Of a stretch of DNA of 33,782 nt, positions 1,614-33,782 are shown piece after piece. The position numbers were made by a program, and so were the translations under genes. The notes below the pieces were generated by a model. The model was not told where the DNA came from. It saw only the letters and a list, made by a program, of their open reading frames with translations, and did no database searches. Location: NCBI GenBank assembly GCA_945907765.1, contig CAMDTO010000015.1, forward strand, positions 1 through 33,782, given 5' to 3'. Source of the DNA: Thermoflexus hugenholtzii JAD2 (GTDB lineage: Bacteria > Chloroflexota > UBA11872 > UBA12225). Position 1 is the stretch's first letter, and each line of letters begins with the position of its first letter.

Positions 1614-2627
1614 TCACGCCATCGTAGCGAGTCGTTCGGCGAGGATTTCATGGCGCAATGGTTCAACCTGGACAAACCTGGTGATTTCGTCGGCCATGAC
1701 CTCACCCATGCGCGAACGCGCCTCCCAAGACGCGCCCGCAATATGGGGCGTCAGGAACACGTTTGGAAGCGTTCGAAACGGATCATCGGGCGCCAATGGT
1801 TCACGCGGATAGACGTCAAGGGCCGCGCGAATCCTGCCCGACCGCAGTTCGGCAAGCAAGGCGTCCTGGTCAATTGCGCCGGCGCGTGCCGAGTTGACCA
1901 GCAGAGCGCCACGACGAAGGCGTGCGAGTTGTGGTGCCCCCACCAACCGGTCGGTCTCCGGTGTGGTTGGGACGTGGTTTGAAAGCACGTCGGCCCACGC
2001 GCACAAGTCATCGATTGCGAAAAGCCTGCGTACCCCAAGCGACGACGCCGCTTCGTCAGACAGGTACGGATCGTAGACCCCGATCTCACACCCGAAGGGC
2101 GCAAGCAAGCGAAGGAATGCCCGCGCTGTCTGGCTCATCGCGATCAGGCCCACCCGCTTCCCCGCGAGTTCGTTTCCGTGGCCCTCATGCGACGACTTCC
2201 ACGCACCGGCACGCATGCTCTCGTGGAATGACATCGCCAGACGCAACCCGGAAAGTGTCGCCATCAGGCACCACTCGCCGACCGCCGCCGCAATCACGAC
2301 CGCGCCGTGCGTGACCCTGATGTCTCGCGCGAACACCTCCGGCGTGACAAACCCCTTGACCGTGCCGGCACCGTGCGCAATCAAACGCAGGCCCGGAAGC
2401 GTGTCAAGCAATCCACTGTCAAAGTTTGGCATGCCCCAGGCCCCAAGGACGATGGATACATCGTTTCGTTCGACCCGCCACGTGTCAGGGTTCCGGGAGG
2501 AAGCGTCGTCGGCAAGCCAGCGGATCGAGGCAACCGCTTCAATCCGGGCCACGGTGGCCGGATGGAAGAGTTGTTCACGGATAATCCCGTTCACCAGGCA
2601 TAGGACGATCGGCTTGGCGTCGGACAT
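1614..2627 (-). CDS. D-2-hydroxyacid dehydrogenase family protein, atypical Rossmann loop
   Basis: This 337-residue protein belongs to the D-isomer-specific 2-hydroxyacid dehydrogenases, which interconvert 2-keto and D-2-hydroxy acids with NAD(P). The catalytic triad is visible: Arg in NSARAGAID, Glu in DVYPREPLAP and His in LTPHIAGAS. The substrate-side motif GAGTVKGFV is also present. The dinucleotide loop is odd. Where the family normally has GxGxxG, this protein reads VGLIAMSQTARAFL, with both later glycines replaced. The other two paralogues in the window keep the usual loop. A relative family with GASRVGR-type loops exists, so the change need not inactivate it. The start ATG at 2627 has only a weak, distant purine tract (AAGGGAA). 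The gene is 78 bases downstream of the Gfo/Idh/MocA gene in the same operon. Confidence 0.85.
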   Translation of the reverse strand: MSDAKPIVLCLVNGIIREQLFHPATVARIEAVASIRWLADDASSRNPDTWRVERNDVSIVLGAWGMPNFDSGLLDTLPGLRLIAHGAGTVKGFVTPEVFARDIRVTHGAVVIAAAVGEWCLMATLSGLRLAMSFHESMRAGAWKSSHEGHGNELAGKRVGLIAMSQTARAFLRLLAPFGCEIGVYDPYLSDEAASSLGVRRLFAIDDLCAWADVLSNHVPTTPETDRLVGAPQLARLRRGALLVNSARAGAIDQDALLAELRSGRIRAALDVYPREPLAPDDPFRTLPNVFLTPHIAGASWEARSRMGEVMADEITRFVQVEPLRHEILAERLATMA

Positions 2628-13301: not shown

Positions 13302-14246
13302 CTAGTAGCCGCGTCGCACGTCGATCACGTTCTGCAGTGCCTCGCCCTTCTCGAACCGGCCGACGTTCTCCACGAACATCCCCCAGTTGAGGCTTGTCGT
13401 CTGGTGGGAAGTGCCAGACACGTGCGGTGTCAGCAGGACGTTCGGCGCACCCCAGAGTGGGCTGCCTTCCTCCAGTGGCTCGTTGCCAAAGACGTCCAGC
13501 CCCGCACCCGCAAGGTGGCCCGAATGCAGTGCCGAGGCAACCGCAGCCTCGTCAACGATTCCTCCCCGCGACAGCACCATGAGGTAGGAACGTGGACGCA
13601 TCGCGGAGATATGCCCCGCATGGAAGAATCCACGCGTCTCCGGGGTGATCGGGATGGCGACCGCGATCACATCGGACTCCGCCACGAGGGTAGGCAATCC
13701 ATCGACCCGCAGCACGCGGTCGACAAATGACGGGCGGGGCACGTCATTCGCATCGAGAGCGATCACGCGCATGTCGAACGCATGTGCCCGCTTGGCAATC
13801 TCTGTGCCGATGCGCCCCAGACCGATCACCCCGATCGTCATCCCCGAGATCCCGACGTTATCGAGGTAGTTGCCGGCCCACCGATGCTCGCGTTGCGCAT
13901 CAATCAGGCGTCCGAGGCCCCTCGTGAAGTACAGGACCATCGCGAAGGTGTGTTCCGCAATCGTCTGGGCGTGGGCACCGCGCGTGTTCGTCACGGTGAC
14001 GTCCGAAGTGGCCAGACCGTCGCACGCGTGCACCCACTCCACTCCTGCCCCGGGCGAATGGATCCACTTCAGTCGATGCGCCGCGCGCAACTCTGCCCCG
14101 GTCAACCCGCCGCCGTACACCACATCCGCGTCCCCGATCACCTCGCTAAGGGAGGAGCGTTCCACCTCAACAATCTCGATCCGGGGGTACGCCGCGCGCA
14201 ACGCCGGCACATCAGCCCCGTGGGACCACGCCATCACGACCTTCAT
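13302..14246 (-). CDS. D-2-hydroxyacid dehydrogenase family protein
   Basis: This 314-residue NAD(P)-dependent D-2-hydroxyacid dehydrogenase has the normal loop GVIGLGRIGTEIAKR and the catalytic Arg (LSRGGIVDE), Glu (FGNEPLEEG) and His (LTPHVSGTS). The N-terminus is MKVVMAWSHGADV. The ATG at 14246 has AGGAG four bases upstream, and the 26 codons upstream in the same frame are not family-like. It is the third family member in the window, but it stands outside the large operon, followed by the APH-type kinase gene. It is closer in its C-terminal half to the paralogue at 4918-5865. The substrate is unknown. Glyoxylate/hydroxypyruvate reductase-like activity is common in such proteins. Confidence 0.88.
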   Translation of the reverse strand: MKVVMAWSHGADVPALRAAYPRIEIVEVERSSLSEVIGDADVVYGGGLTGAELRAAHRLKWIHSPGAGVEWVHACDGLATSDVTVTNTRGAHAQTIAEHTFAMVLYFTRGLGRLIDAQREHRWAGNYLDNVGISGMTIGVIGLGRIGTEIAKRAHAFDMRVIALDANDVPRPSFVDRVLRVDGLPTLVAESDVIAVAIPITPETRGFFHAGHISAMRPRSYLMVLSRGGIVDEAAVASALHSGHLAGAGLDVFGNEPLEEGSPLWGAPNVLLTPHVSGTSHQTTSLNWGMFVENVGRFEKGEALQNVIDVRRGY

Positions 14247-14560
14247 GACACTCCTGCCTTCCTCTACGCTGGCGCCTCGCACCGTGCACCTACCGTCAAC
14301 CGTTTCCCCATGCCCGGAGCCCATGCCCGGGGCTCGATACCCCGGCGGGCGTAATCTACCCCATCGCAGCGTTCAGTCCCCCATCCCACCCGGCGATCTT
14401 CGTCCGGACGGGACTGGAGCGCACACATTTACAAAAGGTTGGCCGGGCATCGGCAACCACGGGAACGGATTTGACATCGCCTTAGCAATGGATGCCGATA
14501 CTCCTGTTGTCGGTCGGGTGGAGCGGATCCACCACCGAACATCACACGGGAGACAGGCAC
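14247..14560. other. Divergent intergenic region
   Basis: This stretch holds the start regions of the hydroxyacid dehydrogenase gene (minus) and of the secreted protein gene (plus). A TTGACA at 14469 and GATACT at 14495 on the plus strand are separated by 20 bases, too far for a standard promoter, so I do not call one. No gene is supported. Confidence 0.4.
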
Positions 14561-15193
14561 ATGAACATCGACACCAAGCGGGCAATCCTGAGCAGCGTAC
14601 TGGTAGTGGCTATCGCCAGCGGTGCGGCCATCGCAAGCACAGGCGGGTCGGCGTCGGCCCAAACGGCAATGCCCCCGGTCAAGCCAGTGTCGGTCACAGG
14701 CGTCTACGCGCCGGGCACGAACAGCGAAGCCTACGAGGCCCGGTACGCCGCCCTTGAAGTCACCGCCGACATGATCGGGATCACCGAGGAACAGCTGGAC
14801 CTGGAACTGCATGACAAGTCCCTCGCGCAGGTTGCCGAGGCACATGGGATCAGTGTCACCGACCTCAAGTCGGCCATCATCGCCGATGCCACCACCCGGA
14901 TCGATGCCCAGGCCGTTGCGGGAGTCCTGACCGCCGAGAACGCGGCCGAGCGGAAAGCCGGTCTTGCGGACCACATCGAACGCTTGCTCGCCCACGTGCA
15001 TGGGGCACCGCCACCGGCAGGCGGGGGACGCCGTGGCGTGAACCCGCCACCGGGCATCGTACCCACCCGTCCGGGCGTGTCCTCAAGTGGTGCTCTTGAT
15101 CCGGTGCGACCGCGCGGGCAAGACCGACCCGCGGGGCAGGGAGGCATGCGCGGTCCGCGCGGTCCGCGCGGTCCGGTTGCGCCCCAGTCGTAA
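14561..15193 (+). CDS. Secreted helical protein with collagen-like Gly-Pro-Arg tail
   Basis: This 210-residue protein starts at the ATG at 14561 (GGAG nine bases upstream). It has a signal peptide (AILSSVLVVAIASGAAIAS, cleavage near ASAQT, about residue 34) and a central helical domain of about 100 residues. The domain has the LGITxEQLxxxLxxGKSLAQVAxxxGIS-type motif (here MIGITEEQLDLELHDKSL and VAEAHGISVTDLKSAI), seen in many exported actinobacterial and Chloroflexota proteins of unknown role. The last 60 residues are low-complexity Pro/Gly/Arg and end with GGMRGPRGPRGPVAPQS, a very short collagen-like run. A hairpin followed by a T tract lies 29 bases after the stop, so the gene is probably monocistronic. 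No function is assigned. It may bind the cell surface or nucleic acid through its basic tail. Confidence 0.75.
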   Translation: MNIDTKRAILSSVLVVAIASGAAIASTGGSASAQTAMPPVKPVSVTGVYAPGTNSEAYEARYAALEVTADMIGITEEQLDLELHDKSLAQVAEAHGISVTDLKSAIIADATTRIDAQAVAGVLTAENAAERKAGLADHIERLLAHVHGAPPPAGGGRRGVNPPPGIVPTRPGVSSSGALDPVRPRGQDRPAGQGGMRGPRGPRGPVAPQS

Positions 15194-30321: not shown

Positions 30322-31035
30322 TTAGACAGGGAGCGGGACGTATCCCTTCGCGCCGGTCAGGATGGCGTCGGACATGTTTGCGCCAGTGAACGTGGTGTCG
30401 AAAAGTGCCGCATCCGTGAGGTCCGCGCCTGACAGGTTGGCCTGCGAGAAACTGGCGCGCGTCAAGTCCGATTGGAACAGGATGGCCCTCGAGAGGTTCG
30501 CCCCATCGAGGTTCGCGCTTCGCAGGGACACGCGCGATAGCTCAGTGCCAACCAGGATCGCCCCGCGCAGGTTGGCCCCGGATAGGTTCGAGTCCGACAG
30601 TTTGGCATTGGTCAGGTTCGCTCCAGCCATTTCCGCGTGCCAGAACGTCGACGCAGGCACGAACACACCAGTCAGGTTGGCACCGGTCAGTGTTGCCCCG
30701 AACAGGTCGGCATCCCGCATCGTCGCCCTGGTGAGGTTTGCTCCGGACAAGTCGGCGTAGGAGAGGCCCGCTCCGCGCAGGGTCGCCTTGGTCAGGTCCG
30801 CGCCGACGAGGATGGCACCCGTCAGGTCGGCGTTGTAGAGGGTCACTCCAGACATGATCGCGCCGGTGAGGTCCACCCCCGACAAATCGCACCCGGACAG
30901 ATCGGCGTTGACAAGGTTGCGCTTCACATTGCAATCGGGTGCCGCGTGCGTAACACCGGGCACCGCAATCATCACTGCAATCGCGACACCGACGGCACGC
31001 AGGGTAGAGGCCAGACCGGCCATGGACTGTCGCAT
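30322..31035 (-). CDS. Secreted pentapeptide-repeat protein
   Basis: This 237-residue protein has a signal peptide (LRAVGVAIAVMIAVPGV, cleavage after THA, about residue 32), a short DCNVKRNLV cap and then about 200 residues of A(D/N)LxG pentapeptide repeats (for example GADLTKATLRGAGLSYADLS), ending in a GAKGYVPLPV tail. The tail resembles the GVTGYVKP end of the pentapeptide protein at 10836-12002, so the two may be paralogues. This one lacks the extra N-terminal domain and linker. Export makes gyrase protection unlikely. The ATG at 31035 has no Shine-Dalgarno sequence but a TATCCT hexamer six bases upstream, consistent with a leaderless transcript. The left copy of a 155-bp direct repeat begins 21 bases upstream of the start. 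Confidence 0.82.
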   Translation of the reverse strand: MRQSMAGLASTLRAVGVAIAVMIAVPGVTHAAPDCNVKRNLVNADLSGCDLSGVDLTGAIMSGVTLYNADLTGAILVGADLTKATLRGAGLSYADLSGANLTRATMRDADLFGATLTGANLTGVFVPASTFWHAEMAGANLTNAKLSDSNLSGANLRGAILVGTELSRVSLRSANLDGANLSRAILFQSDLTRASFSQANLSGADLTDAALFDTTFTGANMSDAILTGAKGYVPLPV

Positions 31036-31047
31036 GACCGGAGGATA
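31036..31047 (-). promoter_or_regulatory. Putative -10 element for a leaderless start
   Basis: On the minus strand TATCCT (31047-31042) is followed by six bases and the ATG at 31035, with the same geometry as at 6417 and 20932. No clear -35 box is seen. Confidence 0.4.
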
Positions 31048-31056
31048 GCGCGGTTT

Positions 31057-31212
31057 CACCGTTGCGGCCCGGGCGGGCATCAAATACCGGACCGTGACCA
31101 AGGCCAGGTCGTCACGTCCGCGCATCATTGGCGGATTACCGGCGACCCACAAGGGCTATTGTCCCCGCCGGGCCCAATTCACGACGTCGCGGAAGCCGAT
31201 GGCGGGCGCCCG
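31057..31212. repeat. Left copy of a ~155-bp direct repeat flanking the SDR gene
   Basis: Two conserved blocks, 31057-31084 (CACCGTTGCGGCCCGGGCGG and on to CATCAAA) and 31178-31212 (TTCACGACGTCGCGGAAGCC and on to GGGCGCCCG), are joined by a poorly conserved middle. The blocks are 121 bases apart here and 120 in the right copy. Block 1 contains a small hairpin (GCCCG-CC-CGGGC). On the minus strand block 2 is open as APAIGFRDVVNWARRG and may be a gene remnant. Confidence 0.8.
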
Positions 31213-31282
31213 AGGGTGCCCGCCGGGCCCGGCGAAGTCGGCGTGGTTGAAGTTGGCGAGCGAGCCTTCGGTTGAGAGCAGG

Positions 31283-32269
31283 CTATGCGGACAATTCCTG
31301 AGCCATTTCCTTGAAGGAGACTTCGATGGGGGTCGGCTTCCAGTCGAGCAGCTCGAATGTGGCGCGGTTGTCGTACGACGCCTTCTTGCCCAGGAACGGC
31401 GCCATGCCCCGCGCCTCGCGATCAAAGAGCCCCATGAACCGCAGCAGGAAGCTTGGCGCCCGGCGCGACGGCACCTTGCTGTAGCCCGCGCTCTTGAGGA
31501 CGCTCGCCATGCTGGCCATCTCGACGGGCACCGCGCTCGCGGCGATGAAGCGCTTTCCGGCCACGCCGGGCGCCGTCAGGGCCTTGACGTGCAGGCGCGC
31601 GACGTCGCGCACGTCGATCATGCCCATCGCAACGTCGGGGATCATCGGCACCTTGCCGGCGATCATGTCGGTCATCATCGCCACGCTCTGGCCTTCGAGG
31701 TTCGCGCCCAACGACGGCCCGAAGACGGCCCCTGGATTGATCACGACGAGTTCCATCGTGCCACCCTCGGCGGCCTTCCATGCGGCCCGCTCCGCGAGCG
31801 TCTTGCTCTTCGAATATGATCCGATCTTGGCGTTGACGTCGGACCACGAGTCGGGCCCGTACTTGCCGGTCTCCTTTCCGGCTGTGACCGCAACGATCGA
31901 CGAGGTGAGCACGAGGCGCTTCACGGCGACGCGCTGGGCCGCGGCGATGACGCGCTTTGTACCCTCGACGGCAGGCGCGATGAGCTCGTTCTCGTCTTTG
32001 GGCTCTGCGATCGCGAAGGGCGACGCGACGTGCATGACGAAGGTGCAGCCCTTCATCGCCTCGTTCCACCCGGAATCCGAAAGGAGATCGGCCTCGGCGA
32101 AGGTCAGATGGTCAGTCGACGTTACCTTCGCAAGAGCCGCTGTGGTCACGTCCGCTTTGGACCGAGATCGGATCGTCCCGACCACTTCAAATCCTTGTCG
32201 CAAAAGTTCAGCCGCGCAGTGCTGTCCGATGTAGCCGGTAATGCCTGTCAGAAGAACACGCTCTTTCAA
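31283..32269 (-). CDS. Extended SDR (NAD-dependent epimerase / dihydroflavonol-reductase-like)
   Basis: This 328-residue protein starts at a TTG at 32269, with GGAG eight bases upstream, giving LKERVLLTGITGYIGQH and so the extended-SDR GxxGxxG motif. The catalytic residues are Ser (VLTSSIVAV), Tyr and Lys (SYSKSKTLAERAAW, YxxxK), followed by VINPGAVFGPSLG. This pattern is typical of the dihydroflavonol-4-reductase/aldehyde-reductase group, which reduces aldehydes or ketones with NADPH. Its codon use differs from its neighbours (more G-ending codons such as GCG and ACG, and more Lys), and a 215-codon frame is open in an alternative reading. It is bracketed by direct repeats (31057-31212 and 32378-32532), so recent arrival by transfer is likely. 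Confidence 0.85.
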   Translation of the reverse strand: MKERVLLTGITGYIGQHCAAELLRQGFEVVGTIRSRSKADVTTAALAKVTSTDHLTFAEADLLSDSGWNEAMKGCTFVMHVASPFAIAEPKDENELIAPAVEGTKRVIAAAQRVAVKRLVLTSSIVAVTAGKETGKYGPDSWSDVNAKIGSYSKSKTLAERAAWKAAEGGTMELVVINPGAVFGPSLGANLEGQSVAMMTDMIAGKVPMIPDVAMGMIDVRDVARLHVKALTAPGVAGKRFIAASAVPVEMASMASVLKSAGYSKVPSRRAPSFLLRFMGLFDREARGMAPFLGKKASYDNRATFELLDWKPTPIEVSFKEMAQELSA

Positions 32270-32377
32270 GAAAATTACTCCGTGGGTGACTGGATGGAGC
32301 GGATTCGACTGGTGGTACCGAGTGATACGTAAAAAATAGCCGACGAAGCACGCCCCGTCAACGGTGAAGTGCCGACC

Positions 32378-32532
32378 CACAGTTGCGGCCCGTGCGGGCA
32401 TCAAACGCGGAGCCGTTACCTGGGTTTCGGTGTCAGAGGGTCTCACTGTTGCAGGGATCGCACATGACCCAATGATCTACTGCTCCGCCGGACCCTGTTC
32501 ACGAAGTCGCGGAAGCCGATGGTGGGCGCCCG
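32378..32532. repeat. Right copy of the ~155-bp direct repeat flanking the SDR gene
   Basis: Block 1 is 32378-32405 (CACAGTTGCGGCCCGTGCGG and on) and block 2 is 32498-32532 (TTCACGAAGTCGCGGAAGCC and on). Block 1 differs from the left copy at only two positions and block 2 at two or three. Block 2 overlaps the 3' end of the DUF5069 gene in another frame. Confidence 0.8.
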
Positions 32533-32954
32533 CCGACCGGCACGACCCGCCCCTCGTCCAGATCCATCAGGTCGAACCCTGTGACAACGTCAGTACGGCC
32601 CCTCAAACCAATCCATTGGGACTCGTGCAGCCAGTCGGCGCCCTGCGTGTCGCCATCGGGCCAGCCAGACATTGCGAGGTTGCACGCCGCGATCTCCCCT
32701 GCACTCGGGTCGTGGATGGAGGCAAGTGCTGAGAGGACCGCTTGGTCGGAGGCGTGCGCACGAACGATCTGTTCAAAGCCCGTGGCGTCCGTCCCGAACA
32801 GCGTGAACACCATCGGAGACATGCCAACGTGAGACCGATAGTCCCCAACGGTTCCCGCCAGGGAGCCTCTCATCTTGTCGATGGATCGTGGCAGCATGTA
32901 CACGCCACCCAAGGCCTCCCAGGGACTGCGAGGCGGATCCTTGGTCAAGTCCAT
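32499..32954 (-). CDS. DUF5069 family protein
   Basis: This 151-residue protein starts MDLTKDPPRSPWEALGGVYM, followed by LPRSIDKMRGSLAGTVGDY and the C-terminal FDLMDLDEGRVVP, which fit DUF5069, a small cytoplasmic family of unknown function. The ATG at 32954 has GGGGAA six bases upstream. The frame is open 28 codons further, but that part lies in a 170-bp repeat also found upstream of the DUF3303 gene. The last dozen residues (GGRPPSASATS) are not family-like and are read from the direct repeat at 32498-32532, so the native C-terminus may have been altered by the arrival of that repeat. It is preceded on the same strand by the DUF3303 gene. Confidence 0.8.
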   Translation of the reverse strand: MDLTKDPPRSPWEALGGVYMLPRSIDKMRGSLAGTVGDYRSHVGMSPMVFTLFGTDATGFEQIVRAHASDQAVLSALASIHDPSAGEIAACNLAMSGWPDGDTQGADWLHESQWIGLRGRTDVVTGFDLMDLDEGRVVPVGGRPPSASATS

Positions 32955-32970
32955 GACTGTTTCCCCAACG

Positions 32971-33137
32971 CCGGTCTGTGTGCGACGGACTCCACCAGCA
33001 CGCCCGTGCGTCTGGTCTTCGGTCCCGTGCTGGTCCACCGGCGATACAGGCTATCCGCATTCGCAACACCATGCGTGGAGACGAAACCGCCCGGCCATCA
33101 CGTGGATGTGCCGGGCGGCTGATCAGTGTATGCGTGG
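32971..33137. repeat. Direct repeat copy A, leader of the DUF5069 gene
   Basis: By eye this is about 80-85% identical to 33464-33634. It contains, in minus-strand order, a strong hairpin (33118-33087) and a second potential stem ACCAGCACG/CGTGCTGGT. It ends 16 bases before the DUF5069 start. The last part is also open as a frame (DQHGTEDQTHGRAGGVR). Confidence 0.85.
33087..33118 (-). terminator. Strong hairpin after the DUF3303 gene
   Basis: A 9-bp perfect stem CCGCCCGGC/GCCGGGCGG extends inward with CATC/GATG past one bulged base, and is followed on the minus strand by TTTCGTC. It lies 32 bases after the DUF3303 stop. It is also part of the repeated leader. Confidence 0.5.
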
Positions 33138-33150
33138 ATCAGGCGTCGCG

Positions 33151-33444
33151 CTATCCGAGTTTGGAAAGAATGACCTTGCGGACGGAAGCATCGTCGAGGA
33201 CAGGTGTGACGGTGATTGCCATGAACTCTGCCCAATTGAGGATGTACGCATAGACGACGTCCGCGGACTTTGCCTCCACGATGTTGACATCGCTGCCGTC
33301 GGCAATGTTGTGCCAGCGGCCGATGGTGCGCATGTCCGGACCCTCCTGGGCACGGTCATCGGCCTCCGTCTGATGGGCAAAATGCTTGAACACCTCCATT
33401 TTTGTCGAGTGTTCGCATTTATACGTGATTAGATAGGTAGTCAT
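33151..33444 (-). CDS. DUF3303 family small protein
   Basis: This 97-residue protein starts MTTYLITYKCEHSTKMEV. It has the GRWHNIADGSDVNIVEAK and VTPVLDDASV segments typical of DUF3303, a dimeric alpha/beta-barrel-like family of unknown role. The ATG at 33444 follows GGAGG by nine bases. The frame is open much further upstream (to 33735), but that part is repeat and spacer. It is upstream of the DUF5069 gene on the same strand (196-base gap), and both genes carry the same about 170-bp leader repeat. Confidence 0.8.
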   Translation of the reverse strand: MTTYLITYKCEHSTKMEVFKHFAHQTEADDRAQEGPDMRTIGRWHNIADGSDVNIVEAKSADVVYAYILNWAEFMAITVTPVLDDASVRKVILSKLG

Positions 33445-33463
33445 ACCTACCTGCCTCCCAGTG

Positions 33464-33634
33464 CCGGTCTGTGCGTCACGGACTCCACCAGCGCGCCCGT
33501 GCGTCTGGCCTTCGGTCCCGTGCTGGTCCACCGGCGATTCAGCGTATCCGCATTTGCAAGTCTGTGCGTGGAAACGGCGCCGCCCGGCCAACACGTGGAT
33601 GCACCGAGCGGTGGGTGTCAGTGGATGCGTGTGG
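33464..33634. repeat. Direct repeat copy B, leader of the DUF3303 gene
   Basis: This is the counterpart of 32971-33137. The outer hairpin is weaker here (CCGCCCGG/CCGAGCGG with one mismatch) and the inner stem has one A-C mismatch. The unit ends 19 bases before the DUF3303 start, much as copy A does for DUF5069. Confidence 0.85.
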
Positions 33635-33782
33635 GAGTAGCGCCCGTACTCATCGTGACCGGTGTTGGGAACGAATGGGGACGTAGCTTGCCGATGGTCC
33701 GGATCGAGGATGCCGGGAACACAGGCCTTGCCCATTGGCGGGTGGGACGCTTCACCCTGTGCGGCCTTGGGTCGCTCCTCGT
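33635..33782. other. Window end, no gene established
   Basis: A plus-strand frame from the ATG at 33625 (MRVGVAPVLIVTGVGNEWG and on) and a minus-strand frame ending near 33620 both stay open to the edge. Neither has a ribosome binding site or a recognisable domain within the window, so no gene is called. Confidence 0.4.

Follow-up and report, generated by a model that had tools for sequence, protein, structure and literature searches.

The window, the whole stretch of 33,782 nucleotides analysed here, is contig C15 of the draft genome G000, and its right-hand end carries an array of small genes separated by repeats (Table 1). A pentapeptide-repeat gene, an SDR gene, a DUF5069 gene and a DUF3303 gene, each with a Pfam match, all lie on the minus strand, and the first-pass annotation's description of four small genes in one direction with paired direct repeats is borne out. 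The array continues past the window, as the contig ends at 33782 inside a further gene of the same kind. The C-terminus of this truncated gene (..FVPNTGHDEYGRYS) resembles that of gene A, predicted to have the NIPSNAP fold, in the sister genome G001 (..FVPGITHDEFWRYS), with 60% identity over 20 aa. DUF3303 looks acquired at the window site, since searches of the other eight genomes of the family returned no homologue of it. The last 150 bp of the window match no other G000 contig except in the repeat itself, and no tRNA genes were found near the arrays. The stop codon of the truncated gene has been lost, so that its frame continues through the intervening repeat (M1-M2, below) into DUF3303 as a single open frame of at least 209 aa (33151-33782, minus strand). 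Three sister genomes of the same freshwater Chloroflexi genus (G001, G002 and G003) serve for comparison, which thus rests on four fragmented draft genomes of the genus that are 81-89% complete.

Table 1. Genes, repeats and repeat modules of the array in the window
Feature	Position	Strand	Remarks
Pentapeptide-repeat gene, signal-like N-terminus	30322-31035	-	Pfam 2e-58; conserved right-hand flank begins here
L/R repeat, downstream copy	31057-31212	-	in-frame remnant of DUF5069 C-terminus (GRPPSASATS*) and intergenic DNA
NAD-dependent epimerase/SDR gene	31283-~32275	-	Pfam 1.3e-26; same site occupied in G001 and G002, not in G003
L/R repeat, upstream copy	32378-32532	-	3' end of DUF5069 and intergenic DNA
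DUF5069 gene	32499-32954	-	Pfam 5.5e-24; 3' end within L/R repeat; final residues GGRPPSASATS
Junction of M2 and native DUF5069 leader	32955-32969	-	GTTGGGGAAACAGTC; in relatives, GGGGAAACAGTC preceded by an unrelated leader
M2 copy a, promoter/leader-like, fused to native DUF5069 ribosome-binding site	32970-33082	-	R2 E 5.8e-32
M1 copy a	33070-33140	-	CGCGACGCCTGA (RDA*) just before
DUF3303 gene	33151-33444	-	Pfam 1.7e-14
M2 copy b, promoter/leader-like, upstream of DUF3303	33463-33575	-	R2 E 6e-28
M1 copy b	33563-33635	-	hairpin CCGCTCGG..CCGGGCGG, then CCGTTTCC core; R1 E 1.9e-16
Truncated array gene, 3' end	33634-33782	-	contig end cuts gene

Modules of the A/B repeat

The two copies of the A/B repeat, ahead of DUF5069 (32964-33118) and ahead of DUF3303 (33457-33611), are 85% identical over 155 nt without gaps, and the best equivalent match among 20 first-order Markov shuffles reaches 45%. 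Blastn extends the match to 175 bp at 83%; the first-pass annotation gave about 170 bp. The repeat consists of two modules, M1 followed by M2 in the gene direction. M1, a terminator-like hairpin 3' of the upstream stop codon, reads GATCCACGCATCCACTGACACCCACCGCCCGG..CATCCACGTGATG..CCGGGCGG, then NCCGTTTCC. M2, a promoter- or leader-like stretch, runs through CCGTTTCCACGCA..TTGCGAATGCGGATANNNTG..CGCCGGTGGACCAGCACGG..GACCAGACGCACGGGCGTGCTGGTGGAGTCCGTCGCACACAGACCGGC and ends at the ribosome-binding site of the next gene, just before its start codon.

The one window copy of M1 that was folded forms a strong hairpin (z -3.2). Across 13 M1 copies, 95% of the pair cells in the stem are standard pairs; the stem varies by G-U changes only, none of which alters both sides, and so offers no proof of covariation. 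M2 folds no better than its own shuffles (z -0.5 and -0.2) and is without a significant fold in most copies, one excepted. The statement that all the repeats contain hairpins is therefore true for only part of them, holding for M1 and failing for M2, and M2 was rejected as a candidate structured RNA. An Rfam search of the arrays returned sub-threshold chance matches only. Most M2 copies have TANNNT at a -10-like position; this motif, together with the location ahead of the ribosome-binding site, suggests that M2 most likely serves the following gene as promoter and leader. M1 is most likely the transcription terminator of the preceding gene. A simple consensus scan for sigma-70 promoters and terminators called neither signal in M1-M2.

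Each module also occurs alone. Lone M1 copies are found after ilvD, before the ABC-transporter gene and twice in contig C51 of G000, and diverge from the consensus of the fused copies at most a few bases past GTTT; two lone M2 copies meet that consensus at CCGTTTCC. In lone copies of either kind the break thus falls on the CCGTTTCC core, where the fused copies join, or no more than a few bases from it.

Blast and covariance models place the modules on three G000 contigs: the window, C51 and C172. M1 is present in all three sister genomes and M2 in two of the three, for 13 strong M1 copies and seven full M2 copies, all within the genus. Among 31 genomes, the M1 model matched the genus only and none of 27 further relatives, and M2 was found in none of five other family members searched. 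The M1 pattern retrieves three records from the GTDB genomes, all of them Chloroflexi metagenome-assembled genomes that are the three sister genomes themselves, one from deep Lake Baikal. There was no match to the M1 and M2 patterns in IMG/VR, nor to M1-M2 in phage and plasmid records. Two weak M1 hits (G001 C105:6768 and G000 C57:15800) match in the hairpin only, look like ordinary terminators and were discarded. About 1.5 kb from an array, contig C51 also carries a bacteriorhodopsin-like gene (13925-14680; Pfam 1e-39); rhodopsin genes have been reported in several freshwater Chloroflexi clades (PMC6169038). Literature searches returned no description of such an array.

Gene content at the repeat-bearing sites

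A simple local duplication had been the explanation expected by the first-pass annotation if the repeats occurred only here and gene order were fixed in relatives. Instead, the units stand beside different genes at three G000 loci, and the relatives vary. Between ilvD and the ABC-transporter gene, G002 has one M1 and no gene, an empty site of the kind that the annotation had proposed looking for. In G001 the same site holds genes A, B and C, separated from one another by two shortened junctions, with M1-M2 ahead of A and M1 after C; in G000 (contig C172) and G003, a first M1 is followed by opposite-strand genes and then by M1-M2, a C gene that TAG interrupts, and a last M1. Genes A, B and C are paralogous and lie in tandem (46% identity between B and C, and 32% between A and the A2 gene of C51). 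Among the M1 copies of the other genomes, those on the ABC side come nearest to the single M1 of G002 (80% to that of G001). The left flank of this M1 matches the ilvD side and its right flank the ABC side, so that one repeat bears the outer flanks of both copies, the configuration expected of repeat-mediated deletion or insertion. This M1 would be either the product expected from recombination between the outer M1 copies or the pre-insertion state; ilvD stretches from other genera, none of which includes the ABC gene, do not polarise gain against loss. The shortened junctions of G001 (C105 9264-9314 and 9668-9720) are without the right arm of M1 and the promoter-like part of M2, so that A, B and C would form one operon. 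On C172, the opposite-strand genes at the ilvD site (1883-2555, plus strand) are two ORFs without a clear Pfam family, situated between M1 copies.

Contig C172 is 97-99% identical to contig C8 of G003 over most of its length, as against 88-89% for the first 18 kb of the window, so that C172 may be a recently transferred segment or a mis-binned contig. With C172 left out, two G000 contigs still carry the modules, as do all three sister genomes. DUF5069 has its native leader in G003, in G001 and in C51 of G000. In the window the order is M1-M2-DUF3303-M1-M2, and the last M2 is joined to DUF5069 at the gene's own ribosome-binding site, GGGGAAACAGTC. At the edge of C51 (1-220), a second DUF5069 start with the native leader is 97% identical to 32747-32966 of the window. 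Two DUF5069 starts in G000 would reflect strain variation or else a duplication that surrounds the array. That the first 220 bp of DUF5069 occur twice in G000 with different leaders, that C172 is nearly identical to G003, and that G000 comprises 270 contigs with 3.4% contamination could all be accommodated by an assembly or strain mixture, in which the arrangement is partly a chimera of strains or species in a metagenome-assembled genome. This origin is very unlikely. The same modules and arrangements recur in separately assembled genomes, one of them from Lake Baikal, and a misjoin driven by the repeats is unlikely given that their copies in the window differ at about 15% of positions.

The L/R repeat flanks the SDR gene as described, and the length of about 155 bp given for it is a span rather than a conserved length, because similarity is confined to two blocks (48 nt at 90% and 43 nt at 81%) on either side of a diverged middle. 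L/R, which is unrelated to A/B, is a local duplication in its own right, made up of the 3' end of DUF5069 and intergenic DNA. The SDR is absent from G003, where a single hybrid L/R resembles the upstream copy in its left part and the downstream copy in its right part; here again, the relative that lacks the gene has a single repeat, bordered by the outer flank of each copy. Since the SDR stands at the site in G000, G001 and G002, the simplest reading would be that G003 lost it through L/R recombination. G002 has an inserted DUF1330 gene beyond the SDR, enclosed by two exact 18-bp copies of the SDR's last codons. Beyond the SDR of G001 (C43 1435-1980), where the other genomes have the pentapeptide gene, lies an IS5-like transposase with a DUF772 domain.

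Remnants of gene ends accompany both repeats. CGC GAC GCC TGA (RDA*), 3' of the DUF3303 stop codon and ahead of M1, matches the ends of gene-A-type genes, and so do ..ERQFWRDA* before the middle M1 of G000 and ..ERLLWRDA* before its G003 counterpart. Gene A2 (C51) ends in DEFWSDA* and gene A (G001) in DEFWRYS*, with both stop codons at the same M1 position. After the SDR, the downstream L/R copy preserves the C-terminal frame of DUF5069, GRPPSASATS*. These gene ends indicate that the repeats may be the tails and leaders of older, replaced reading frames, and those before M1 suggest an origin of M1 and M2 as duplicated flanks of a single unit with a NIPSNAP-fold gene, the reading frame of which was swapped. 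Gene A is predicted to adopt a NIPSNAP/ABM (antibiotic-monooxygenase) fold (model pLDDT 93; PDB 5ixu, E 8e-6, TM 0.74); the structure model for genes B and C was of low confidence and was left unused. The A/B/C family was not found outside these arrays in nine family genomes.

The gene A remnants ahead of M1, and the tandem paralogues A, B and C at the ilvD/ABC site, are features that plain local tandem duplication and divergence would leave if the array were a duplicated gene family and the repeats its conserved intergenic parts. The genes of such an array would be homologous from unit to unit; A, B and C are, whereas DUF5069 and the lumazine-binding-like gene are related neither to them nor to each other. 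M2 copies are nevertheless 76-96% alike upstream of DUF5069, DUF3303, lumazine-binding-like and NIPSNAP-fold genes, and those ahead of DUF5069 and the lumazine-binding-like gene are 93% identical. Since the flanks resemble one another more closely than do the genes they enclose, simple co-duplication with the genes is ruled out. The units are spread over three contigs, and DUF5069 follows a native leader both in relatives and on a second G000 contig. Tandem duplication explains the origin of the units and not the genes now within them, is already insufficient for DUF5069, and is unlikely as a full account.

Comparison with known repeat systems

Tandem gene arrays change by unequal crossing-over between direct repeats. 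The window array is like them in the tandem paralogues A, B and C and in a gene loss that leaves one hybrid repeat (L/R of G003), and unlike them in having unrelated genes between the same flanks and units at several loci. MITEs and other intergenic mobile repeats are short intergenic repeats with a hairpin, present in several copies. M1-M2 resembles them as a hairpin repeat of about 160 bp that lies between stop codon and ribosome-binding site, at several loci and in one genus only, and might accordingly be read as a small non-autonomous element inserting between genes. This reading is improbable. Seven full M2 copies in four genomes are few, terminal inverted repeats are not obvious by eye, and the half-elements share one internal break point, contrary to dispersal of the element as a whole. 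The border is constant and modular, joined to gene starts and ends, and the native leader of DUF5069 has been replaced rather than left beside an insert, the far side lying beyond the contig end.

Integron cassette arrays and CALINs likewise have small single accessory genes, mostly in one direction, with related hairpin-bearing repeats between them; they share with the array the empty and filled versions of a site and, in the case of CALINs, a neighbourhood without an integrase. CALINs, which are attC clusters lacking an integrase, outnumber integrase-bearing integrons in bacteria (PMC9668308). Empty and filled versions do occur among relatives at the ilvD/ABC site, and other mechanisms predict the same. 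Unlike integrons and CALINs, the array has no attC boxes (RYYYAAC/GTTRRRY) in five A/B units or four L/R regions, and none of the four genomes (drafts 81-89% complete) has a match over the cut-off to the integron integrase (TIGR02249); the first-pass annotation had likewise seen no integrase and no GTTRRRY core. Only two conserved tyrosine recombinases are present in each genome, G002 included. The junction also differs in being a terminator-like module joined to a leader-like module, halves that are found alone as well. With attC boxes and integron integrase both lacking, assignment to the integrons is not supported.

An integron-like, site-specific array might still be envisaged in which M1, with its CCGTTTCC core, is the site, M2-gene-M1 units are cassettes, and the recombinase is unknown or acts in trans. 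The geometry M1-(M2-gene-M1)n, with one M1 at an empty site, would suit such a system, as would a break point that is constant in lone M1 and M2 copies and accessory genes that occur nowhere else in the family and mostly face one direction. It is decidedly unlikely on account of the missing boxes and integrase, and also because the break points coincide with a natural terminator/promoter border and because L/R and the 18-bp repeat of the SDR tail have a similar geometry without M1 or M2.

Probable gene turnover at duplicated flanks

Repeat-linked gene turnover, as gain, loss or swapping of genes at the repeats, is supported by units beside different genes, by the empty site with one M1 and by the hybrid L/R of the SDR-less G003. 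This part of the cassette-like growth and exchange first proposed is borne out; a site-specific cassette system, with neither integron integrase nor attC boxes in the four genomes' units, is not supported. The preferred explanation, with the balance of probability slightly in its favour, is that the flanks of an ancestral NIPSNAP-fold unit were duplicated and that general recombination, without any dedicated recombinase, replaced or removed the reading frames between them. The ancestor would have been one transcription unit of the gene A type, M2-gene-M1, which was duplicated in tandem and of which copies also reached other loci. Homologous recombination between flank copies, or illegitimate recombination at their edges, would then have replaced or eliminated the enclosed reading frame, and the outcome would be small genes that are each expressed independently and differ between species. 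L/R would be a second, independent case with the same geometry, in which an intergenic stretch and the tail of the preceding gene were duplicated around one gene, and recombination between the copies would remove or add the enclosed gene. General recombination at duplicated flanks is preferred because it explains M1/M2, L/R and the SDR tail by one geometry and calls for no unknown enzyme. Judged from four fragmented draft genomes, it is most likely the route taken.

As a counter-point, the shared break point of M1 and M2 would also fit a recombination core. The M1/CCGTTTCC/M2 junction could then be a recombination site for circular M2-gene-M1 cassettes that operates without attC or an integron integrase. 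This is a highly improbable reading, under which each inserted gene would arrive already insulated and expressed.

The empty, one-gene and three-gene versions of a single site provide a comparative set for testing integrase-free cassette turnover. If general recombination at duplicated flanks is the right explanation, the duplicated terminator and leader would act as exchangeable sockets, in which a newly arrived gene is expressed immediately without disturbing its neighbours, and lake Chloroflexi without a detected integron could renew their small accessory genes.
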